Below are positions 1 to 31,274 of a stretch of DNA of 64,000 bases, one piece after another (positions within the stretch are counted from its first letter, which is position 1; every line of letters starts with the position of its first letter). Both the position numbers and the translations under genes were made by a program. The notes under the pieces are model-generated. The model did not search any database. It had not been told where the DNA came from and saw only the letters and a list, made by a program, of their open reading frames with translations. Source of the stretch: Gautieria morchelliformis (taxonomy: Eukaryota; Basidiomycota; Agaricomycetes; Gomphales; Gomphaceae); NCBI GenBank assembly GCA_015179125.1, contig WHVA01000213.1:115353-179352 (forward strand), given 5' to 3'.

Positions 1-67
1 TCAGGACTCAGAATACTCCAGCTCAAGTCGAAAGAGCTCAAGGACAAACACCACTGATGAAACAACG

Positions 68-589
68 GTGACTGTGCAGCTGAACAATCAGCTACACGAA
101 GCAACCCAACCCATCGGCCACGCTGATGCGAGGAACGAGCAGATAGGCCGTGAGCTGGAGAAGGTGGCAGATGGGATTGCTGGCATAGTCACGATGACAC
201 ACAGACTAGCCAGGTCACTTGCGGGCCTGCAAGCATCACTGGCTGAATCCCGCACGGACGTGCGCCAGAGCAACACAGAAATTGCCGGCGCTACAAGCCC
301 TTGAAGACAAGAACAAGCGTCGCCACCACCGAACATCCCATCCGTGCAGGACATATGGTTCAGGAATGAATCGAGAAACCGCGAGACCAACATGGCCCCA
401 GAGAGGGATGGCAAAACCATCCAACAGGCAGTCTGTGAACAGGTGGCCTTGGAGGTCGACTCTGAGGACACGGCCACGAGCCTGGAACTCGAAGTCGAGC
501 ACTGGCAACGGAAAGAGGCGCAAGCTGCCTGTCGCTATATGCGTGCCCTGGAGCTGCGCAGGCAGCATGCCAAAGAGGTGGTGACTTGA
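68..589 (+). pseudogene. G1 gag N-terminal region, frames broken
   Basis: Two open segments, 68-304 and 344-589 (different frames), precede the recognisable gag of gypsy copy G1. The first is polar and rich in Gln, Glu, Arg and Ala with a helical, coiled-coil-like pattern (NEQIGRELEKVADG near codons 23-36). The second is also helical and charged. Fungal gypsy Gag proteins often begin with such a self-association segment, so I read this as the start of Gag broken by frameshifts. The 5' LTR lies outside the window. Function is inferred from position only; no diagnostic motif is present. Confidence 0.4.
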
Positions 590-793
590 GCGCAGACCAC
601 CCAGCTGCTGAACGAGCAGCAGGAGCGTGTCGTTCAGGAGGCCAGACAAGCATGTTCTGCTCTCTTGAGCAGACTATGAGTCCAGAATGTGGGATTGACA
701 GGGGACACCTGACATCAATCCCCATGAAGCAGTGAGCAGTTAGAAACTGCCCCACCACGTGCTGCTGTACAGCCACGCGAAAGGTCTTTTGCC

Positions 794-2050
794 TTGACCT
801 TCAGTCAAGGCATCCTGGACCAAATTGAAGGCCCACAGGAGCCATATGACAGCGTCACATGGATGATCCGTGTAGCGCTTGCAGACGCTGCAGACACGGA
901 CCCTGAAAAGTCCGTGCTCGCGAAAGCTGGCATAAAGCTGGCACACCCCGAGCCATACGCCGGAGGTTCGGACCTCGAAGAATTCGAGGGGTTCGTAGCG
1001 GGCATCTTGAGGTGGCTCAAGATGAACTGCCTACTAGGGCCAACCACCATGCAGATGCAGGTGGATTACCTGGGCACTCACCTAACCGGCAAAGCCCAAG
1101 AATGGTTTGTTCAAAACGTTGAGCGTTTCGATCGTCAGGTCCATGAATGGACCTTGGAAATGGCTATGCAAGGGCTGCAGAAGAGATTCATGCACACCCT
1201 CACATATCACCACGCGTTGAACAAATTTGACACTGTCGTGCAAGGCACGAAGACCATTCAGGAAATACTGAATGAGCTCACGAAGTACTTGGCCTGGATG
1301 ATACAGCCGCCTGATGAATACACACCCCGTAGACGGTTCGTGTCAGCATTGTGCGATACATTGCGCAATGAAGTCCTGAAGAAAGGCTACAATGCCAAAT
1401 TCAGCTTGATCGAGCAGCTCTTTGAAGCTGCCTGAATGATTGAGGAGGCATCCCGGTACAACCAAGGCATGCGTCGGGCAGAAACCGCAGCCGCAATGGC
1501 CATCACGTCACAGCTTGTGACGAGCAAGCTAACTGCACAGTCAGGCTTTAAAAAGCCCACTGCATTCCAGGCAAACAATGCCTTCTGCCAACCCATGGCA
1601 ACAAAGCCGCCACAAACAGGTTGTCCGCCTGAGGCGTTGGGAAACTCAGCAAAGCCGAGATACCCACAAAAGCCATCCGGCCGCCCTCCAGATAGGCCGC
1701 AAAATTCCCATAGCAGCGCAAGCTGCTTTGAATGCGGCCAGGCAGGCCACATTAAGGCGAATTGCCTGCGCCTGAGGCCAAAAGTGCGGCCAGCGGCTGT
1801 ACAGCAGGACGACGATGAGGGTCTGGAGGGTCCCATTGATACCTCTCTTCAAGAGGTCGAAGAGGGGGAGGGTGACCCTCAGGAAACTGCGGATCAAGAA
1901 GGAAATGGTGAGCCAGCAGAAGCCTGGGAGCCTGAACCATCCCAATACTACGATTGGGATGAAGACATGGCAGACAACCAGACTGCCTACAGATCCAGCG
2001 CGATTAGAATCGCGCAGGTAGATGAGACAGCCAAAGTCATGGCTGCTTGA
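794..2050 (+). pseudogene. gag: G1 Ty3/gypsy gag with CCHC zinc knuckle, one internal stop
   Basis: One continuous frame of about 418 codons, interrupted only by TGA at 1433-1435. The N-terminal half has the layout of the retrotransposon_gag domain: AKEWFVQNVERF, then LQKRFMHTL, then the LNKFDTVVQGTKTIQE region. The C-terminal half carries a CX2CX4HX4C knuckle (CFECGQAGHIKANC, 1724-1765) and a long acidic tail. Gag would package element RNA into cytoplasmic particles. The TGA follows GCC and is probably a decayed codon; programmed readthrough is possible but unsupported. Protease follows in another frame. Confidence 0.8.
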
Positions 2051-2110
2051 ACGACGGCCCGAGATAAGGCGGCCAAACCGATGTATCATCATCGGACCAA
2101 ACACCGCACA

Positions 2111-2592
2111 TGACTGGTAGGGCTGTGCTGCGAAAACTGTACCCTGTCAGGGTACTGGGAAATTGGTGGCACAAAGGCCCACTGTCTACTAGACAGTGGG
2201 AGTGAAGGGGTACTGCTATCCCCCCAATTCAATCGTGCCACTGGCATTAAGACATTTGCCTTGGAACAGCCAATTGCCCTGCAATTGGTGTGCATCGGTA
2301 GTCGATCAATGATCAACTACGGGACAAACACGACCATTAGATTTGGTCGCGAAACAGTCGAAGAATACTTCAATGTGGTGAATGTCAAGTACTACGACAT
2401 TATTTGGGGACTCCATGCCTAAGGAAACTAGGGGTGACCCTGGACTTTGCCAGTCCAGGGACAATCCATGTGGGGAATGAAACCATCCCTACAGGAAAAG
2501 TAAGCTTCGACAACGAAAAGTCGTCAAAGAATGGCATGGGCCCAAAGGTGAGTAGAATCACCTCGGGGCTCATACCCCCCCTGGCCAATTGA
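2111..2592 (+). pseudogene. G1 aspartic protease, frameshifted, leading into deleted RT
   Basis: The frame from about 2111 encodes a retropepsin-like domain with the active site LLDSGSEG (GAC-AGT-GGG at 2192-2200) and a C-terminal hydrophobic strand (YYDIIWGLHA near 2391-2420). The frame then shifts and continues as LRKLGVTLDFASPG and VGNETIPTG, the linker that normally leads into RT. It would process Gag-Pol. A perfect 23-bp inverted repeat lies exactly on the catalytic codons. The reading frame stops at 2590 and no RT palm follows, so the polyprotein is dead. Confidence 0.75.
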
Positions 2593-2598
2593 AGCCAG

Positions 2599-2651
2599 GA
2601 GGATGAGTCTCGCAACTCATCCTCACCCTCTCCCTACACCCGTAGGGAGAG
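2599..2651 (+). repeat. Twin 10-bp-stem hairpins at the RT deletion point
   Basis: Two perfect hairpins sit back to back: GAGGATGAGT/ACTCATCCTC (2599-2608 and 2615-2624, loop CTCGCA) and CTCTCCCTAC/GTAGGGAGAG (2628-2637 and 2642-2651, loop ACCC). They lie exactly where sequence corresponding to the RT fingers and palm is missing. Confidence 0.85.
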
Positions 2652-2701
2652 ACGCTGTCATCTCACGATGAAGGCACTAGAAAAAAGGAAAAAGCCGCCG
2701 A

Positions 2702-5010
2702 GTGCCGGGGGTCCAAACAGACGAGGTGGACCTCTACTCCATCCGAATGGAGTGTCTCGGCCATATGATCGATGGCCGAGGGGTACATGCCGACGAGGAC
2801 AAGATGCAACGCATCCGGGAGTGGCGCAGGCCACGGACGTTCAACGACGTCCAGCGTTTCCTCGGGCTGGTACAGTATCTGGCACACTACATGCCGGATG
2901 TTAGCGCATATACCACCCCACTATCGGGCTGTGCGCGTAATAACCGTCCATTCGAATGGACACCACTACTCGACAAATGCTGGCAAAGCATTAAGGCATT
3001 GGCCTGTAAGGCCCCGATCCTGCGTCCAGTAGACGCAAGGTGCCCAGAGCCGATCTGGGTGATCACCGACGGATCAAAAGCCGGCATCAGTGCGGTCTAC
3101 GGCCAAGGTCCTGACTGGAAAACTTGTCAACCAGCCGGCTTCTTGTCAAATAAGTTCAGCGTTGCTCAACAACACTACCGGACTCACGAGCATGAGACGA
3201 TCGCGGTGCTCGAGGCTCTCATGAAATGGGAGGACAAATTGCTGGGGCGAAGGTTCACCCTCATCACAGACCACAAAGGGCTCGAGTACTTCAAGACCCA
3301 GAAGAGCCTATCTGACCAACAGGTCAGATGGTGGGAGTTTCTATCCCGGTTCAATTTCAACACCGTTCATGTTGACGGTGTAGAGAACAAGGTAGCGGAC
3401 TGCCTGTCGCGCTACTACGAGAGCGACACGAGTGATGACAATCACCCGGACCATGTCTTCGTGAACGTGGATGCGCGTTTGGACCCGGATGGCGAGTTAT
3501 TGCCCACCGACCGGTATGTCGAGTTGCGAACAGCAGTGACAAGACGCTCTAAATGCCTCGCTGAGAAGACAGAGGCGAGAGTAACGGAAGCCGCCGCATT
3601 AAACGAGGGCTCGCCAGAGCCTGCAAACGTCGCCGCGTCCCGCGATGACGATGATGACGTCAGAGCCATCGCCGCAGGAAATGACGGCGCGCCCCTACGC
3701 CGGGTCGTTGAGCAAGGCGTAGACCTGTCGAAGGTCCTACGAGACATGTACCACAGGGACACCATGTTCACAAAGATCATGGTGCACCCGGACGCGCACC
3801 CGAGATTCGGGATCCAGGACGGGCTGATCTGGACTAAGAATCAGCTCAAAAGAGATGTCATTGCCATCCCCTGCTCTGTTCTTCAAGGGGCAAGGAAGCT
3901 GATCGAAATTATCATCGATTGGGCACATCAGATAGTTGGCCACTATGGCGATCTGAAGACTTCGAACTACGTTCGAAGAGCATATTGGTGGCCGGGCATG
4001 AGCCCAGACATAGAAGCGTTCTGCACATCGTGCGCAAGGTGTCAGATGACGAAAACCGGGCCACAACGGCCCAAAGGCCTACAACACAGCCTACCCATTC
4101 CAGATAGGCCATGGCAGTCGATTGGCATCGACTTCATGGGGCCCCTGCCCAAATCCAACAACTGTGACTACCTGATGGTAGTCATCTACCGACTAACGTC
4201 GCTCATACACCTCGTACCAACCACGACGAGCGTGTCAGCCAAGGGAGTAGCCTGGCTGTTTCTGAAGGAGGTCATTCGACTCCACGGAGTTCCCGACTCC
4301 ATCGTCTCGGACAGAGACTCGAAGTTCACGTCGATCTTCTGGCGTGAACTACAAGGACTCATGGGGACTAAGCTCCTCACGTCAACTGCCTTCCATCCCC
4401 AAATGGATGGAGCCACCGAGTGGGCAAACCGCTCGATCGGCCAGATATTGCGCGCGGTCGTCAGAGACGATCAGAAGGATTGGGCATTGAAATGCCCAAT
4501 GGTAGAGGTCACCCTCAACCCCAACGTCAGCGCGACCACAGGGTTCACACCTTTCGAGCTGAACCGCGGCTATATGCCGCGGATAGACCTCCCCATAGCC
4601 GTGGACACCCGTTCAAGGGGGTAGCCCGGTTCGCACATCAGGCAAAATGGAACCTGATGGCTGCACACGATGCAATCATAGAGCATCGAGTGACGCAAAC
4701 GTTTCATGCAAACAAGAAACGTAGGGCGAGCGACAGGTACGCGGCCAACGACCGCGTCTACCTTTCGACACAACACCTAACTCTCCCGAAAGGAAGAGCC
4801 AGAAAGCTAGTCCCGTGGTACATTGGACCGTACCGCGTTGTCGAGGCTCACAACGACGCCTCGACGGTGACCCTCGATCTTCCCGACGAACTGAAAAGCC
4901 GTCGTATTTCACCGGTCTTCCATTCCAGCCTCGTACGGCGATACGAGGCTAACAACGATGAATTGTTCCCTTGTCGTGAGGCCAAGTCATTTTATGACTT
5001 CGGAGCAAAT
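2702..5010 (+). pseudogene. pol: G1 pol remnant: RT thumb, RNase H, integrase
   Basis: Open from 2702 to 4624, with continuation in another frame (about 4612-5010). Order: RT connection (RRPRTFNDVQRFLGLVQYLA), RNase H (WVITDGSKAGISAVYG, VLEALMKWEDKL, TDHKGLEYF, ADCLSRYYESD), integrase HHCC finger (IVGHYG, then CARCQMTKTG), catalytic core with D in GIDFMGPLP (GAC 4130-4132), D in VSDRDSKF and E in GATEWANRS, then a GPYRVVEAHNDASTVTLDL C-terminal domain. The RT palm with its YxDD motif is deleted, so the copy is non-autonomous. The frameshift near 4612 and the hAT insertion at 5011 split the C-terminus from its chromodomain. Confidence 0.88.
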
Positions 5011-5773
5011 CAGGGCTGTCCACGAGTCCAGGTTCCTGCAGGTGACTCGCAGTTCAACCTGCGATTTTAACCTGCAGATCCAACTCCCACAAGTCCAGGT
5101 GACCCGGCGCCTAAAAACCTGCCAAGTCCAGGTTTGGCCTTTGGAATTCCGCAGGTGACTTGCAGACCTGCAAGCCTTAAATGCCAAGAATTCATGTCAT
5201 TCAACTACTATTACCTCCTTCTGGAGTAGAGAAGTCAGTCATCTCAGGTATCTGCGAGTATGCCGGTTCCTCCACAATGGATTACAGGGTTGACTTCCTT
5301 GACTACTAGACAATTGAATAGAGACCTGAAGCACCGAAAAAAAAACACGAACCGGTAGAGAACTTGCAGCTCTCAGGTGATCTGCGAGTATGCCCGTTCC
5401 TCCACACTGATGTGGCGGCATTGCTGCCCACTGATTGACCTATGTAGGGCCATCAGTTGTGCAGACTTGTGAGTCCAAACAGACCATGTGACTCACTGTC
5501 TGTTCATATGATCTGCACCTGGCCAGGGACCTGGGCCATGTCTTTCCATGGAGGAGGGCCGTCCCCATGGGAGGAGACACATCATGCACTCGCATGGGGT
5601 GAGTCAGCTTGGAATAATCCGGCAAGTCACCGCAAGTCACCCGCAGGTTTAACCTGCGGGTCCAAGTCAACCTGCAGAAAAACTCAGGTCAAGTCCAGGT
5701 TCCACTTCTGGAAGCTGGCAAACCTGCGAGTCCAAGTCCAGGTAACCTGCAGGTTGACTCGTGGACAGCCCTA
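5011..5773. mobile_element. Non-autonomous hAT-type MITE with 8-bp TSD
   Basis: Flanked by a perfect 8-bp direct repeat GAGCAAAT (5003-5010 and 5774-5781). Termini are inverted: the left end starts CAGGGCTGTCCACGAGTC and the right end, reverse-complemented, starts TAGGGCTGTCCACGAGTC, matching the hAT terminal consensus YARNG. Subterminal DNA is packed with short motifs in both orientations (AAGTCCAGGT, AACCTGCAGG/AACCTGCGGG). Internally, about 33 bp is directly repeated (from 5243 and from 5372, around ATCTGCGAGTATGCC). No ORF resembles a transposase, so it must be mobilised in trans. It interrupts G1 between integrase and chromodomain; G2 has the uninterrupted reading at the homologous site. 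Confidence 0.9.
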
Positions 5774-5781
5774 GAGCAAAT

Positions 5782-5979
5782 GACGACGAGGAGTGGCTCG
5801 TCGACGAGATTATCGCACATTGATGGATAAACTCGACGGACCTGGAGCTCCAGGTCCGTTGGACCCTAGGCGACGTGACATGGGAACCCATGTCATCCTG
5901 CAAGGACCTTGAAGCCCTAGATAGCTCTCTAGAGCTTCAGGGGGTGGGCAAGCCATGCGTCCTCCCCAGACGCCGCTAG
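5782..5979 (+). pseudogene. G1 C-terminal chromodomain, separated by MITE
   Basis: Directly after the MITE target repeat, the frame reads EEWLVDEIIAH, stop, then WINSTDLELQVRWTLG, VTWEP and LEALDSSLELQG, ending TAG 5977-5979. This is the chromodomain pattern (E-W-x-V-x-x-I ... L-x-V-x-W-x-L-G ... T-W-E-P) found at the C-terminus of chromovirus integrases, where it steers insertion to modified histones. TGA 5821-5823 is CGA at the matching place in G2 (9676-9678), a CpG transition. A perfect 24-bp palindrome (5836-5859) and a 20-bp inverted repeat (5876-5895) lie within the coding sequence. Confidence 0.75.
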
Positions 5980-6028
5980 ACGCGTCCGTCACGTGCAGAC
6001 CACATGACGCGCCGGCCACGGCGCGGTT

Positions 6029-6099
6029 AAATTTTCGCCTCGGATCTTTCCGAGGGTGCATCGCTTCTTGGAAGCAACCACCATCATCTACCCACGAAG
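6029..6099 (+). promoter_or_regulatory. Putative leader/promoter of the G1 3' ORF
   Basis: Conserved with G2 although it lies between genes: a TTAAATTTT box, then the hairpin CCTCGGA/TCCGAGG (6038-6044 and 6049-6055), then GGGTGC and an A/C-rich stretch up to the ATG at 6100. In G2 the AT box reads TATAAATTTT. Conservation in a spacer suggests a promoter or leader; activity is inferred. Confidence 0.4.
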
Positions 6100-7203
6100 A
6101 TGATGCCCCCCAAAGATGGGATGGACGTTGATCCGTCAATGTCCACAACGCGAACAACGGCCCCGAGGCAGGGGGCCGCAGACATTCTACGTGCTCCAAT
6201 AGACCAGGAGCACTGGATGATCGTGGGATGGGAGGACGCCCTCGCCATCGTCCACCCAGACGATTGCGCAACATGCGCAGACTACGCCGCGCACCTTAGG
6301 GCCGCGACCGGCGCCAAAGAAACGCCACAGCTCACGCGTACATGCGAGATGATCGGCGTATTTAAACGCATCGAGCGCGAACAATGCACTCGCAATCCCA
6401 AAAGGGATTGTCTCCTGATAGCGGGTGGTACCCTGCACGATATCGCGGCCATCCTAAAGGGTTGAATACACAACCCTGAAGGAATCCCATCAGCCATCCG
6501 TGACAATGCGGATGGCACCTTCAACCTAGACGACATGGACGTCTGGATGTGGTTGAAGGCCCTTGCGCCCCGGGTCAAAGGGGTTGCATCACCTCTCAGG
6601 GCGAGGCTACTCAACCTATTCGGCTCGACAGACCAATGGTCGAGCCTCGTTGACGCCAGGGAAGTGCTGACGCCTCAGAGCACCACCCTGCGGCTCTCCA
6701 TCATGGGCCCATTCCCCATGGGGGGCCGAGCCAGCCCCAACATCCCCCTCGCCGAGATCACGAGATGGTTGGCCCGCTATGTGGGGGTCACTCGTGAGCG
6801 AGTGGCATGCATTGAACACTATGTTCAATGCAGCATCACTGGCGCAGCATTCAGTGCTGCCACTCGCGAGGGCCAACAAAAGGTCCTCGAGACCAGCCAT
6901 GTGAGGACTGCAGTGCCATGACCCCTCACTCACGCTCAGCTCGACCAAGAGCTGGCGCGCTTCTGGCCCCCTCCTCAGACTGAGGACCTGGCCGTTGAGG
7001 CCATGCTCCGCGAGGACGCTGGCCTCATCACCCAAGCGGATACCGCCGCTAGTGGTGAGGCCGACCAGCCTCACCCAATCACCACCGATGACGCGGAGGT
7101 GCCCCCAGAGGAGTCACGTGCTCCACCGGCCCCGTACGACAATGACGTCATCGTATTGGCCACTCTAGAGGGCTCCATTATGGATGACCTCTATGAGTTG
7201 TAG
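6100..7203 (+). pseudogene. G1 3' accessory ORF, unknown function
   Basis: A single frame of about 367 codons from ATG 6100 to TAG 7201-7203, broken by TGA 6463 and TGA 6919. Its start (DGMDVDPSMSTTR, then HWMIVGWEDALAIVHPD), middle (GIPSAIRDNADG, LKALAPRVKG) and end (GSIMDDLYEL) match the G2 3' ORF at about half the residues, but G1 lacks some 280 internal codons. No signal peptide, transmembrane segment or enzyme motif is visible, so an env role is unlikely despite the env-like position. It is protein-conserved between diverged copies, so it was probably functional. I do not recognise the family. Confidence 0.6.
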
Positions 7204-7236
7204 TTAACCCCTATAGTTGTATATAGAGGGGGAGGG

Positions 7237-7449
7237 TGTAAATAACCCGTGTATCTACATGTACATTAGTTATTACATAATCCCAGTGGGCCCCTTAGGG
7301 ACCCACTGTATAGTTTATGCGTGGGAACCGGCTAGCGGTCCCCATTGCATCTTACCCTTACACTGTCACTATGTAGCATCAGAATACCACACCTTGGTCA
7401 AGTTCTGTCGTGCTCTTGTAACTTAAGGCTTAAGATAGACATCTTTACA
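7237..7449 (+). repeat. LTR shared between G1 and G2
   Basis: Begins TGTAAATAAC directly after the purine-rich tract GGGGGAGGG (7228-7236) and ends TTTACA. The copy at 11847-12079 has the same start, internal order and end but is clearly diverged. It contains the inverted pair CAGTGGG/CCCACTG (7284-7290 and 7302-7308). The RT-thumb coding sequence of G2 begins within a few bases of its end, so gag, protease and RT of G2 are missing. Confidence 0.8.
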
Positions 7450-7452
7450 AAA

Positions 7453-9741
7453 ATGCAACACATCCGTGAGTGGAGGTGGCCTCACACGTTTAACGATGTG
7501 CAGAGAGTCCTCGCCCTCGTCCAATACCTGGCACACTACATGCCAGATGTCAGCGCATACACCACTCCCTTATCAGGATGTGTGCACAACAACTGTCCAT
7601 TTGAATGGACGCTGTTGCTGGACAAATGCTTCCACAGCATAAGGGCGCTGGCCTGCAAGGCCCCGATCCTGCACCCCATTGATGCATGGAACGCGGACCC
7701 GATATGGGTCATCACTGACGGTTCAAAGTCTGGTGTCAGTGCCGTCTACGGCCAGGGACCAGACTGGAGGACCTGTCGACCAGCTGGCTCCTTGTCAAAG
7801 AAGTTCAGTGTTGCACAGCAACACTACAGAACACACAAGCATGAAACCATTGCCGTGCTTGAAGCCCTCATGAAATGGGAGGACAAACTCCTAGGGAAAA
7901 AGTTCACCCTAGTCACAGACCACAAGAGTCTCGAGTACTTCGAGACCCAAAAGAACCTGTCTGGTAGACAGGTCCGGTGGTGGGTGTTCCTATCCTGCTT
8001 CAATTACAACACCATCCACGTTGATGGCATTGAGAACAAAGTAGTGGAATGCTTATCCTGCTACTATGAGAGCGATATGGGTGACGAGAAGCACCTGGAT
8101 CATGTCTTTGCCAACGCAGATGCACGACTAGACCCGGACGGTGAGCTAATGTCCACCGACCGATACATGGAGCTGCGTACAGCAGCTACAAGGCGATCAA
8201 CTCGCCTCACAGAGAAAACAGAGCTGCGAATATTAGAAGCAGCGGCTATGAATGAAGGCTCTGTCAAGGAGCCTTGCCACGACACGTCATTGCCAGACAA
8301 CGACAACGACAACGACATCCACGTCATTGCCGCAAGCAATGACGGAGCTTCCCTATGCGTAAGCATAGAAGAAAACTTGGACCTGCCAAAGGTCCTACAT
8401 GACTCCTGCCATAAGGAGCCCATGTTTGTGAAGATCATGGTGAACACGGATGCACACCCAAGATTCGGCATCTGGGATGGGCTGATTTGGATGAAGAATC
8501 AGCTCAAGAGGGATGTCATAGCCATCCCTTGGAACGTGTTTCAAGGGGGAAGGAGGCTGATCGAGATCATAATCGATCACACCCACCAGACAATTGGCCA
8601 CTACGGTCAACTGAAAACTTCGAACTACATTCGAAGAACATACTGGTGGCCCAGTATGGCCTCGGACATCGAGGCATTCTGCACTTCATGCACAAAGTGT
8701 CAGACTACCAAGACAGGCACGCAGCGGCCTGCAGGGCTACTACATAGCCTGCCCATACCCGATAGACCATGGCAATCTATTGGGATCAACTTCATGGGCC
8801 CATTGCCAAAGTCGAATGGCTGTGATTACCTCATGGTAATCATAGATAGACTCAGGTCTCACGTACACCTTGTCCCGACAACAACGAGTGTGACAGCCAA
8901 AGAAATAGCCTGGCTATTCCTGAAGGAGGTCATAAGACTTCATGGAGTCCCAGACTCCATAGTCTTGGATCGAGACTCGAAGTTCATGTCCATATTATGG
9001 AGTGAGCTCTGACGACTCATGGGGACGAAACTCCTCATGTCCACCGCGCTCCATCCTCAAACGGATGGTGTGGTGGAACGGGAAAACCATTCAATGGGCC
9101 AGGTCATTCTATCAGTCGTCAACAACGACCAAAAGGACTGGGCCAACAAGTGCCCAATGGTCGAAGTTGCATTAAACAGCAATGTCAGCTCGATGACAGG
9201 GTTTGCACCCTTCGAGCTGAACCACGGATATATGCCGTGGATTGACCTACCAATGGCCACGGACACTCCCTTTAAGGGAGTGATGAAATTCACACATCAG
9301 GCTCAATGGAACCTGATGGCAGCACATGATGCCATCATAGAGCACCGCGTGACACAGACGTTTCACGCTAATAAGAAACATCACGAAGTGGCCATGTATG
9401 TGGTGGGAAACCGCGTCTACCTGTCAACACAAAACCTGACCCTGCCAAAAGGGAGGGCCAGGAAGCTAATACCGCGATATATAGGACCATATCGTGTGAA
9501 GGAGGCCCACAATGACACCTCAATGTGAACCATCACACCGATGTTTCATACCAACCTCATATGAATGTATGTGGCGAACAATGAGGATCTATTCCCTCGT
9601 CGAGAAGCAAAGTCATTTTATGACTTTGGGGAGAATGAAGAGGAAGAGTGGCTCGTTGACGAGATCTTATCCCATCGATGGATAAACTCGAAGGACCTAG
9701 AGTTCCAAATCAGGTGGATTCTAGGAGCCACGGCGCTATAA
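7453..9741 (+). pseudogene. pol: G2 pol remnant: RNase H, integrase, truncated chromodomain
   Basis: One frame runs from the LTR junction to TAA 9739-9741 with stops at 9010, 9526 and shortly after. Order matches G1: MQHIREWRWPHTFND (RT connection), RNase H (WVITDGSKSGVSAVYG), integrase HHCC finger (CTKCQTTKTG), core, then a chromodomain start (EEEWLVDEILSHRW) cut short after WILGA. The first catalytic Asp of integrase is Asn (GINFMGPLP, AAC 8788-8790; GAC in G1), a CpG to CpA change that alone would kill the enzyme. Gag, protease and RT are absent. Perfect inverted repeats are frequent throughout. Confidence 0.85.
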
Positions 9742-9766
9742 ATTTTCACCTCGGATCTCTCCGAGG
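9737..9766 (+). promoter_or_regulatory. TATA box and hairpin before the G2 3' ORF
   Basis: TATAAAT at 9737-9743 overlaps the pol stop. It is followed by the hairpin CCTCGGA/TCCGAGG (9749-9755 and 9760-9766), also present in G1. The ORF start is about 40 bases downstream. This suggests that the accessory ORF has its own transcript; no transcript data are available. Confidence 0.45.
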
Positions 9767-9805
9767 GTGCTTCACTTCTTAAGAAGCAACCACCACCATC
9801 ATCTA

Positions 9806-11824
9806 ATGAAGATGGATGGCATCAAAGAAGTCATAGACATTGAGCCATCAACATCCACGCCACGGCCATTGGTCCCAAAGAAGGGGGCCACCACGATATT
9901 CTCGAAAAAGCTAGCTCCCGAAAACTGGGAGGTAGTGTCGTGGAATGACAGGCTCGCCATTATCCATTCGGATAAGTGCAAATGTTGCGAGTCATACGCA
10001 ACCCACTTAGCGGAGTCGTCAAACTCCAGTAAGATACAGATCGTAGATGAGGACATCGGCTATGCCGTTGAGGACACCTGGCCCTGGATCACCAAAGGGG
10101 CCAGGTGGATGGCAGTTGAGGACACTCAAGCAGAGATTGAGCGCCTCAAGCAGGACCTGATCTCCGAGCGTGAGTGAGTCTCACACCAGGACGACACAAT
10201 CCACGAGTTGAAACAACAACTCGAAGGAGCCAGGCCGATGTGCCCCACCCTGCCGCAGCCAAAGGGTCAGCCTGTGGCCGGTCCATCCTCCCACCCGATG
10301 GCTCCATTGCCATCGCGTGAAAAAGGGGCAACACTAGCCCCAGGGGCCACACCCCTCTCATCAGGCCCGGCTCTGGCCAACCGCATCACGGAGCCCAGCA
10401 AGGCACCCATTGTGGACGCCCGCGTGGCATCCAGGACAGCGACAGTCACGACACTGTTGACTGTGATGGTGCCGTTTGAGTTGTATGACGCCAACATCCC
10501 GGACAGGTGGCTGTCCGACACGTCAATCTGGGACAATTATGACCCAGATCGGCCTTAACATGTTTCCAAATGGAAACACAGAAAATATCTCCCCCCGTCA
10601 GTCATGGAAAACGGACTGGCAGATGAACTAGAATGTGTCAAGGACGTGTATCTAGCAGAGTCGTCAGCGCATGGCGTTGATGATCCCCGGCTACAACAGG
10701 CACTAGCCACAGCTCAGGCCCAATACATTGGGCCTCACGTTGTGCTACCGCCGCCAGGGTCAGGAGTTGTACAATGCTACCTGGGGGCAGGGGAGCCATT
10801 GAGACACGGAGATCCACCCATCTCCGTGATGGGCCACTTGCCGCAGCCCCTAAGCAGATCCGTCCCTCAGGTTGCCGAGTGGTACCACATCTGCCCGATC
10901 ACTGAGCAGAGGTTTTTAGACCTCCTCGCGCTCACCAGGGACACTCCGGTTGACCAGCGCATGCCGGAAATGAACACGGCATTCCAGCACCTCCGCGAGG
11001 AGGGCCCCCATAAACCCCGTCCAAATTACATAAATATTTTGGACGGTACACCTGACGATATCATCACAGTGCTTAATGGGTGGCAGTCCAACACTGAAGG
11101 AGTCCCTCCCGCCATCCGTGATGATGTGGAAGGCGGGTTAAACACAACAGATATCAAGTGGATCTGGATCCTGGCTCCCAAGGGCAAGCCACGATCCCCC
11201 CTCAAGTCACGTTTAAGCGACTTGTTTGGTATGCCAGGCCAGTGGCATGACCTCGTGACCGACATCACAATCCCGTCGCCCGCCGCAGACACCCTGCGGG
11301 CCTCGATCACCAGGATGTTCCCGCTCGGGAACAGACTCGCACACGAGATCCTGCTAAAGGAGCTTGCATCATGGCTAGCCCTTCATGGCGGCGTAAACCA
11401 TGAATGTATCCCTTGGATCGAGGGATACTTTCAGCGACTTCGAGACAAGGAAGTCACGAACACCGCTGCATGTACAGGGCAGTGGCGACATAAACAGGGG
11501 CTGAAGATGTCCCAGCGTGCCTGCGAGAAAGCGGCTGCGAGCACTTCGGAACAGCTCGACAAGGAGCTGCTCGTGTCCGACCCCCCGGATCTGTGACCTG
11601 ATCCGGCCGTGGAGGCCGCCTTCATCCAGGAGATAGGAATCAACCCATCTCTTGAAACGGGCCCGTACCAACCCCGAGCCAGACCCAGCTGATCTACATC
11701 TGCTCACGCAGATGCGATGCACGTGGATCCCTGGCCCCTGCTGGCTCCATATGAGGACGTCCCAATGGATGACGCTCCTTCAGCTGAGGACAAAGACCTC
11801 GATGATGACATCTATGGAGATTAG
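9806..11824 (+). pseudogene. G2 3' accessory ORF, fuller copy
   Basis: A single frame of about 672 codons from ATG 9806 (or 9812) to TAG 11822-11824, with in-frame stops at 10175, 10556, 11594 and about 11690. Visible parts: an N-terminal block with DRLAIIHSDKCKCC, a helical segment (AEIERLKQDLISE), a Pro/Ala/Ser-rich linker, a second globular block (ECVKDVYLAESSAHG to NYINILDGTPDDIITVLNGW), a third block (IRDDVEGG to FPLGNRLAHEIL, WIEGYFQRLRDKE) and an acidic tail ending DDDIYGD. No membrane segment or catalytic motif is seen. Homology to G1 spans both ends. It sits between chromodomain and 3' LTR. Possible nucleic-acid or capsid-associated role, but this is guesswork. Confidence 0.6.
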
Positions 11825-11846
11825 AGTTCTCTATAGTGGGGGAGGG

Positions 11847-12079
11847 TGTAAATATAGATATTTACCTGTGTTGCCATGAGGCAACACATAATAGCTGGTA
11901 GCTTACATAGTGCCAGTGGGTCCTCGCAGATCCACTGTATAGTTCTTGCCTGGGAATCCTCCAGGATTCCCCAAACTTATCTCTACTTGTAAGTGTCACT
12001 ACGTCGTACTAGAATCACCACCGTTTGGTTGAGTTCTGTTACCTTGTGATACCACAAGTAATAAGCCATACATCTTACA
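11847..12079 (+). repeat. G2 3' LTR
   Basis: Starts TGTAAATATA after the polypurine tract GGGGGAGGG and ends CTTACA. It is homologous to 7237-7449. It contains three strong stems: TGTGTTGCC/GGCAACACA (11867-11875, 11880-11888), CAGTGG/CCACTG (11914-11919, 11932-11937) and GGGAATCC/GGATTCCC (11952-11959, 11964-11971). Confidence 0.8.
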
Positions 12080-31233: not shown

Positions 31234-31274
31234 CAGTGCTCATCGGGTCTTTCTGAATGACCCGATGAGCACTG
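31234..31274. repeat. 16-bp perfect hairpin in the MULE 5' region
   Basis: Arms CAGTGCTCATCGGGTC (31234-31249) and GACCCGATGAGCACTG (31259-31274) around a 9-base spacer that can itself pair TTC with GAA. No coding role is seen. Confidence 0.85.

Follow-up and report, generated by a model that had tools for sequence, protein, structure and literature searches.

Perfect short hairpins saturate two related Ty3/gypsy families of Gautieria morchelliformis and are acted on by template switching

In a window of 64,000 nucleotides from the basidiomycete Gautieria morchelliformis (contig WHVA01000213.1, positions 115,353 to 179,352), the region 2100-11980 consists of retroelement sequence that an earlier, sequence-only reading of the window had named G1 and G2. 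We find that saturation with perfect hairpins is a property of two related Ty3/gypsy families, A and B, from which this region is built. Exact inversions of hairpin loops between intact arms reveal that template switching acts on these hairpins. Our leading explanation, which we hold at about even confidence, is that template switching, repeated during copying of the element, gave rise to the stems and keeps them perfect.

Perfect hairpins in families A and B

We counted non-overlapping inverted repeats with perfect arms of at least 7 bases and a loop of at most 12 bases. Region 2100-11980 contains 78 such stems, or 7.9 per kilobase (kb), against an expectation of 6.7 from dinucleotide shuffling (60 shuffles, z 29). 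With arms of at least 8 and at least 9 bases, the counts are 41 and 19, compared to 1.7 and 0.6 in the shuffles. The excess is present inside coding sequence as well: 11 open reading frames (ORFs) hold 62 stems, compared to a mean of 8.7 and a maximum of 22 in 300 synonymous-codon shuffles, and 33 stems with arms of at least 8 bases, compared to 2.3 (maximum 11). The other gypsy elements of the window are at chance when compared to dinucleotide shuffles (G3: 0 vs 3.6; G4: 4 vs 4.2; G5: 6 vs 3.4). The sequence-only reading had claimed a high stem density in G1 and G2, coding exons included, that it did not notice in G3-G5. This claim is borne out by the counts and survives the codon shuffles and the comparison with G3-G5, which that reading had itself named as its refutation test; furthermore, all 22 inverted repeats that it listed are exact (Table 1).

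The folding energies, which the same reading had suggested for checking, agree with the counts. In windows of 150 nucleotides on the plus strand, the mean folding z-score is -2.2 for 1-2721, -2.3 for 2722-7236 and -2.6 for G2, compared to 0.0, +0.5 and -0.8 for G3, G4 and G5. On the minus strand, the stem-rich stretches have mean values of -1.9 to -2.4.

The stems are neither confined to the claimed region nor to this locus. They are also dense in 1-2100, 5' of the claimed start, and the first three kb contain 4, 5 and 10 stems. Each of 33 further copies (20 of family B and two sets of 6 and 7 of family A) has at least 1 kb with at least 5 stems; the densest kb in an A copy holds 18, and many ends of the fetched copies are stem-poor. 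Non-coding stretches of the window have 6.3 stems per kb and coding stretches 7.7, and the codon phase of the stems is only slightly biased (26, 19 and 17).

Arm and loop lengths were determined in seven sequences, namely 1-7330, 7331-11992 and parts of five copies. The arms are 7-13 bases long, the most frequent loop length is 4 with few loops past 10, and the excess lies mainly at loops of up to about 10 bases. In five element sequences, spacers of 0-12 bases are enriched 8-13 fold and spacers of 13-25 bases 2.2-4.4 fold; spacers of 26-60 (0.9-1.6 fold) and 61-150 bases (0.8-1.5 fold) give no consistent excess.

It is extremely improbable that chance, base composition, codon usage or small palindromic insertions account for the stems. 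Chance and codon usage are contradicted by the dinucleotide and synonymous-codon shuffles. The stems are also not insertions, because, in the listed examples, a stem specific to one lineage is aligned to sequence of the other family that has no stem, nearly always without gaps.

Loop inversions between intact arms

We scanned the stems for distinct loop replacements of at least 3 bases between nearly intact arms (two differences allowed). Among 958 distinct replacements, five sites, all among B copies, carry a loop that is the exact reverse complement, compared to 0.32 expected (Poisson p 2e-5), and none carries a loop that is only reversed or only complemented. The five sites are CCT/AGG in the protease, CTTCA/TGAAG in gag, TTTTC/GAAAA, GCAA/TTGC and GCA/TGC. 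One further B site (GCAA/TTGC, here with differences in the arms) turned up in another comparison but not in the systematic scan, and was left uncounted. An apparent 5:5 loop flip proved to come from misread orientation at near-palindromic flanks and was discarded. Among clustered differences, a scan detected 15 reverse-complement clusters (6 of 6010 plus 9 of 6458 clusters) compared to 8 reversed, 8 direct and 2 complement ones, and several of the 15 are exact hairpin-loop flips.

We also searched the assembly (122 Mb, 1113 contigs) with patterns in which the arms were fixed and the loop was left open. The gag stem was found at 43 places: 19 have TGAAG and 9 a near form, 8 have CTTCA and 5 a near form, and 2 are unclear; C148 and C242, both among the eight with CTTCA, appear in alignments as well. 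For the protease stem, 59 places comprise 30 CCT, 14 ACT, 9 GCT, 1 AGG and 5 others. In family A, 100 of 219 places were listed for the stem at 3960 (81 TAC, 14 TAT, 1 TAA, 1 TAG, 2 GTA and 1 ATA) and 100 of 446 for the stem at 4165 (93 TGAT, 5 TAAT, 1 TTAT and 1 ATCA). When the four A copies with inverted loops are aligned, the loop is flipped, the arms are intact and other changes are scattered; ATA is the flip of the TAT variant. For a control stem of G4, no flip was present in 100 of 267 places listed, and for one of G5 none in 100 of 266 places listed, with a single variant loop in all.

In a study on yeast genes, template switching is described to homogenize arms and to invert spacers of 2-5 bases (PMC8604942). 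The loops of 3-5 bases that are exact reverse complements between intact arms carry this same mark, and we thus conclude that template switching acts on the hairpins of families A and B. Two traits of template-switch hotspots are present, namely exact spacer inversion between intact arms (five B sites and four A copies) and short spacers (loop mode 4), and as in yeast the affected sequence is coding. That study found ten spacer inversions in coding sequence of yeast, with a minimum arm length of >9 bp (PMC8604942), whereas here the flips occur in one stem-saturated element lineage and the arms at some flips are shorter.

Origin and maintenance of the stems

We infer that template switching also made the stems, from their short loops, their perfect pairing, their presence in coding and non-coding sequence, and their restriction to families A and B, which holds within the window. 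The nascent strand would fold back at a quasi-palindrome, and one arm of the hairpin would be copied from the other. The loop would sometimes be flipped during the switch, and protein constraint would filter the stems that survive. The element's own reverse transcriptase (RT) would be the agent, since the host polymerases that copy these families also copy G3-G5, where the stems are lacking. As a bolder version, and only tentatively, we suggest a palindrome drive: the element's RT may fold back on nascent complementary DNA (cDNA) so often that copying between arms outpaces point mutations, and the element as a whole, with its genes, may converge on perfect hairpins in series, limited only by the tolerance of its proteins.

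The sequence-only reading had named template switching during reverse transcription as one possible cause of the stems. Its action on the hairpins is confirmed by the loop inversions, whereas the tests of stem formation by one-arm differences, difference clusters and co-change did not favour it. Several results weigh against an origin by switching. Loop flips can follow from perfect hairpins of any origin, and the clustered differences, when scanned, comprised little other than such flips. The A stem at 3310 has no inversion in 100 of 413 places listed. The pooled A flips (4 of 300 places listed, three stems) do not prove, by comparison to 0 of 200 in the controls, that other elements lack flips; they are about as frequent as loop transversions at the stems at 3960 and 4165 (3 of 200). 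Within families, co-change at stem pairs is no commoner than at control pairs (ratios to expectation of 1.39, 1.14 and 1.63 compared to 1.27, 1.31 and 1.58). Differences in one arm only are not in excess, either within or between families, and within families they are rather fewer than in controls; in the three-difference class of family A, they occur at 5% of sites compared to 24% in controls. Neither is there an excess of cases where several bases of one arm were rewritten to match the other, of which we have single examples only. In lineage-specific stems, the changed arm is the 5' arm at 20 sites and the 3' arm at 16 (p 0.31), and we rejected a version with switching in minus-strand synthesis only, which predicts a changed 5' arm. 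Lastly, stem codons are not richer in derived residues (18/104 compared to 118/590 elsewhere).

Some further measures were set aside or call for a qualified reading. Within-family paired change had appeared to be a strong signal (457 compensatory vs 157 not), which was undone by the control column pairs. Co-changed cells form Watson-Crick pairs in 60-78% of cases in stems and in 27-29% in controls, although the same is expected anyway from two transitions at paired positions. Arm base composition was dropped as a clue to direction since the AT skew and GC skew hints conflicted. In the comparison of G1 with G2, the raw counts of replacements are 16/40 for A-stem codons compared to 121/423, and lower for B-stem codons (12/64).

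To follow the stems through the families, we defined 34 A and 28 B family stems as those found in 40% or more of the copies (one site of family B is counted twice due to overlapping segments). A stem was considered shared when the same centre is found in at least 15% of the copies of the other family; this is the case for 14 of the 34 A stems and 12 of the 28 B stems, which leaves 20 and 16 that are not shared. In a leave-one-out count, private non-CpG changes are rarer in arms than outside stems, both in family A (30/4397 vs 253/21172, p 0.0025) and in family B (75/4898 vs 501/21287, p 0.0003; 69/4194 vs 593/26449 with another segmentation). We thus conclude that the arms are maintained, by selection or by conversion. 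This count replaces an earlier one of lower stem divergence, which was confounded because a stem was scored only where it was intact. In loops, private changes are not lower, and at CpG the arm contrast is weak. At third codon positions of pol in family A, arms have 4/642 private changes compared to 57/3327 (p 0.036); the other three pol codon-position comparisons go in the same direction and are not significant. As the private changes show codon-position constraint, they are not purely post-insertion, and they do not separate selection from conversion. In shared stems, the weighted paired differences are 11.8 compensatory and 2.8 non-compensatory; judged by eye, they are mostly at CpG, where both arms mutate readily.

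A credible explanation, to which we give clearly less weight than to repeated template switching, is that the single-stranded genome of the element, as RNA and perhaps also as cDNA or antisense RNA, has been selected for extensive structure, like that of RNA phages or of viruses with genome-scale ordered structure. The hairpins would aid packaging, stability or the pacing of RT, or would prevent a long sense/antisense duplex, and template switching would be a side effect of perfect hairpins. Such selection, if directed at local structure in both strands, would account for most of the observations given above. It is consistent with the folding z-scores of about -2 on both strands, with the conservation of the arms including third codon positions in family A, with the centres shared between the families, and with the absence of extra amino-acid change in stems. 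Furthermore, the coding sequences of the phages MS2 and Qbeta, as counted here, likewise have a local excess of perfect stems, with 7 stems in 3.57 kb and 18 in 4.2 kb (2.0 and 4.3 per kb, compared to 7.9 here). Persistent RNA viruses, likened here by description, reportedly show genome-scale ordered RNA structure with a folding-energy excess over the whole genome. On the other hand, 36 of 62 stems are not common to A and B, non-coding sequence is about as stem-rich as coding sequence, and exact loop inversions are not predicted by selection for structure.

Wobble pairs bear on the strand involved. The sequence-only reading had proposed codon choice for a structured RNA. Among 42 family-level stems with one mismatch, we found 2 G.U, 17 A.C and 23 other mismatches, and as G.U is not in excess, simple selection on the plus strand is unlikely; in that form the proposal gains no support from the wobble pairs. 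MS2 and Qbeta have no G.U excess either (5 G.U, 5 A.C and 10 others), and therefore a genome folded on both strands would not be expected to show one. In single copies from the seven sequences, one-mismatch stems comprise 15 G.U, 29 A.C and 52 others. With looser settings, G.U and A.C are about equal in single copies of the window, and the excess of A.C over G.U is not robust. The lack of a G.U excess thus stands, whereas an A.C excess is uncertain. A control with ribosomal RNA gave too few stems to use. The stem ACGTCGTACC-CAAT-GGTACGACGT and its variants (L044-L052, L032) have one base pair that is C.A in one set of A copies and T.G in the other; these look as if a C-G pair at a CpG had decayed on either side.

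Host DNA polymerases could instead switch templates after insertion, flip the loops and keep the arms matched, with another cause for the stem-rich start. The same kind of footprint is described for yeast chromosomal genes (PMC8604942), some flips are found in single copies only (L016, L054 and L056), and the within-family identity of 0.86-0.95 indicates copies old enough for post-insertion changes. This explanation does not account for the restriction of stem richness, within the window, to these families, and the two control stems gave no flips in 100 listed places each, with control arms of 7 bases and nearly invariant G5 copies. We consider it rather improbable. Quasi-palindrome mutations are said to have been studied in yeast lacking RNase H2.

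Two other systems resemble the elements described here. Mitochondrial genes of Nematomorpha have many perfect inverted repeats with both arms coding, gained and lost between species, for which the authors weigh repeat conversion and template switching without settling on either; their reasoning from perfect coding palindromes is similar to ours (PMC6649704). Their arms are at least 15 bp long (mean 43, maximum 142) and lie in mitochondrial genes (PMC6649704), whereas here arms of 7-13 bases lie in a nuclear retrotransposon with loop inversions; no repeat of at least 15 bp was found in the seven sequences, where the longest arm is 13. In the template-switch origin of RNA stems, a perfect stem is created or repaired in a single step, and no selected intermediates are needed for paired changes; that work concerns RNA genes selected for structure, whereas here the sequence is protein-coding (PMC8794818). 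Among the open-access articles listed, judged by title and abstract opening, none describes perfect hairpins saturating a retroelement; subscription literature lies outside this scope.

If copying error and not selection fills the coding sequence with perfect stems, stem density and paired changes, which are often taken to prove that an RNA structure is functional, need not reflect any function. With their many copies, families A and B allow a natural tally of the switches at each hairpin, sorted by the lengths of arm and loop, which makes the old question of the origin of perfect stems directly testable. If selection is the cause instead, the retrotransposon surpasses RNA phages in its density of local perfect stems, which would matter for packaging and silencing.

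The elements and their hairpins

The ORFs of the window have Pfam matches to a Ty3 capsid, aspartyl protease, RNase H, an H2C2 integrase and a Tf2-type SH3 domain, and their order, from the Ty3-type capsid through the aspartic protease and RNase H to the integrase, is that of Ty3/gypsy. Families A and B are 71-78% identical. The B copies L020, L025 and L027 match 7450-11992 and part of 1-2721, whereas the A copies L029-L034 match 2722-7236 (Table 1). The window copy lacks the RT core, and its comparison with L020 shows a gap of about 820 bases. In L020, 823 bases lie between the matches of 2718 and 7450 and hold an RT-like ORF with a YMDD motif (recognised by eye), and homologous proteins carry PF00078. 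The simplest reading of this comparison would be a single B element whose RT core has given way to the 3' section of an A element. Thus, the stem-rich family of the sequence-only reading is upheld, but its 'G1' and 'G2' would not be two whole elements. The junctions of this apparent mosaic are at 2721/2722 and 7449/7450, with some 820 bases of RT apparently lost from the B element.

L020 has a direct repeat of 207 bp at both ends (94% identical), and for most other fetched stretches no such clean terminal pair was reported. The stretch similar to a long terminal repeat (LTR) corresponds to a part of L029 that sits upstream of its coding part. A search of the genome with A protein gave 7139 candidates, of which 68 were scored, all strong matches, among 69 listed; family A is therefore abundant. 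Among 120 listed homologous proteins, the few named sources are Phanerochaete, Trametes and Rhizoctonia. A protein search of phage records gave no match.

Both families have ORFs 3' of pol (6031-6921 and 9725-11596), and the three ORFs scanned there (6031-6465, 9725-10177 and 10559-11596) have no Pfam match at E 0.001. In the SH3/chromodomain region, about 764 bases (approximately 5011-5774) are absent from L029-L032, with about 8 bases common to both ends. This segment is rich in CCTGCAGG-like and GTCCAGGT-like motifs and is perhaps a separate small insertion.

Table 1. Segments of the composite element and perfect hairpins in the window
Feature	Position	Strand	Arm (bases)	Loop (bases)	Remarks
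Family-B 5' part (gag, protease), stem-rich	1..2721	+			85-90% identical to L020, L025, L027; Pfam Ty3_capsid, aspartyl protease
Family-A stretch (RT end, RNase H, integrase, SH3 domain, 3' ORF), stem-rich	2722..7236	+			main matches 90-96% identical to L029-L034; Pfam RT_RNaseH, Integrase_H2C2, SH3_Tf2-1
LTR-like stretch, family A	7237..7449	+			98% identical to L029 843-1055; LTR by position only
Family-B stretch (RNase H, integrase, 3' ORF, LTR start), stem-rich	7450..11992	+			main matches 86-91% identical to L020, L025, L027
Stem	2139..2155		8	1	
Stem	2178..2200		11	1	on protease active-site codons; in 15/17 B copies, 0/6 A copies
Stem	2270..2288		8	3	loop CCT inverted to AGG in copy L016
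Stem	2438..2460		9	5	
Stem	2756..2780		9	7	A and B at the same place, C-G changed to T-A
Palindrome	2946..2961		8	0	
Stem	3310..3329		8	4	A-specific; family B has a different stem with shifted centre over the same codons
Stem	3360..3381		7	8	
Stem	3960..3978		8	3	loop inverted in three A copies (GTA or ATA in place of TAC)
Stem	4165..4184				TGACTACC-TGAT-GGTAGTCA, perfect; loop inverted to ATCA in one A copy
Stem	4927..4950		9	6	
Palindrome	5836..5859				24-bp perfect palindrome
Stem	5876..5895		9	2	
Stem	6393..6410		7	4	
Stem	6458..6477		7	6	
Stem	6493..6516		8	8	
Stem	6622..6646		8	9	
Stem	6808..6832		11	3	
Stem	10716..10735		9	2	
Stem	10805..10828		9	6	
Stem	11017..11046		9	12	
Stem	11316..11333		8	2	
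Stem	11867..11888		9	4	at the 3' end of the element

On the plus strand, families A and B contain more A (0.26-0.28) than T (0.18-0.20), and the loops are richer in A (0.34-0.35). Outside the retroelements, an isolated perfect inverted repeat with arms of 16 bp and a loop of 9 bases is present at 31234-31274.

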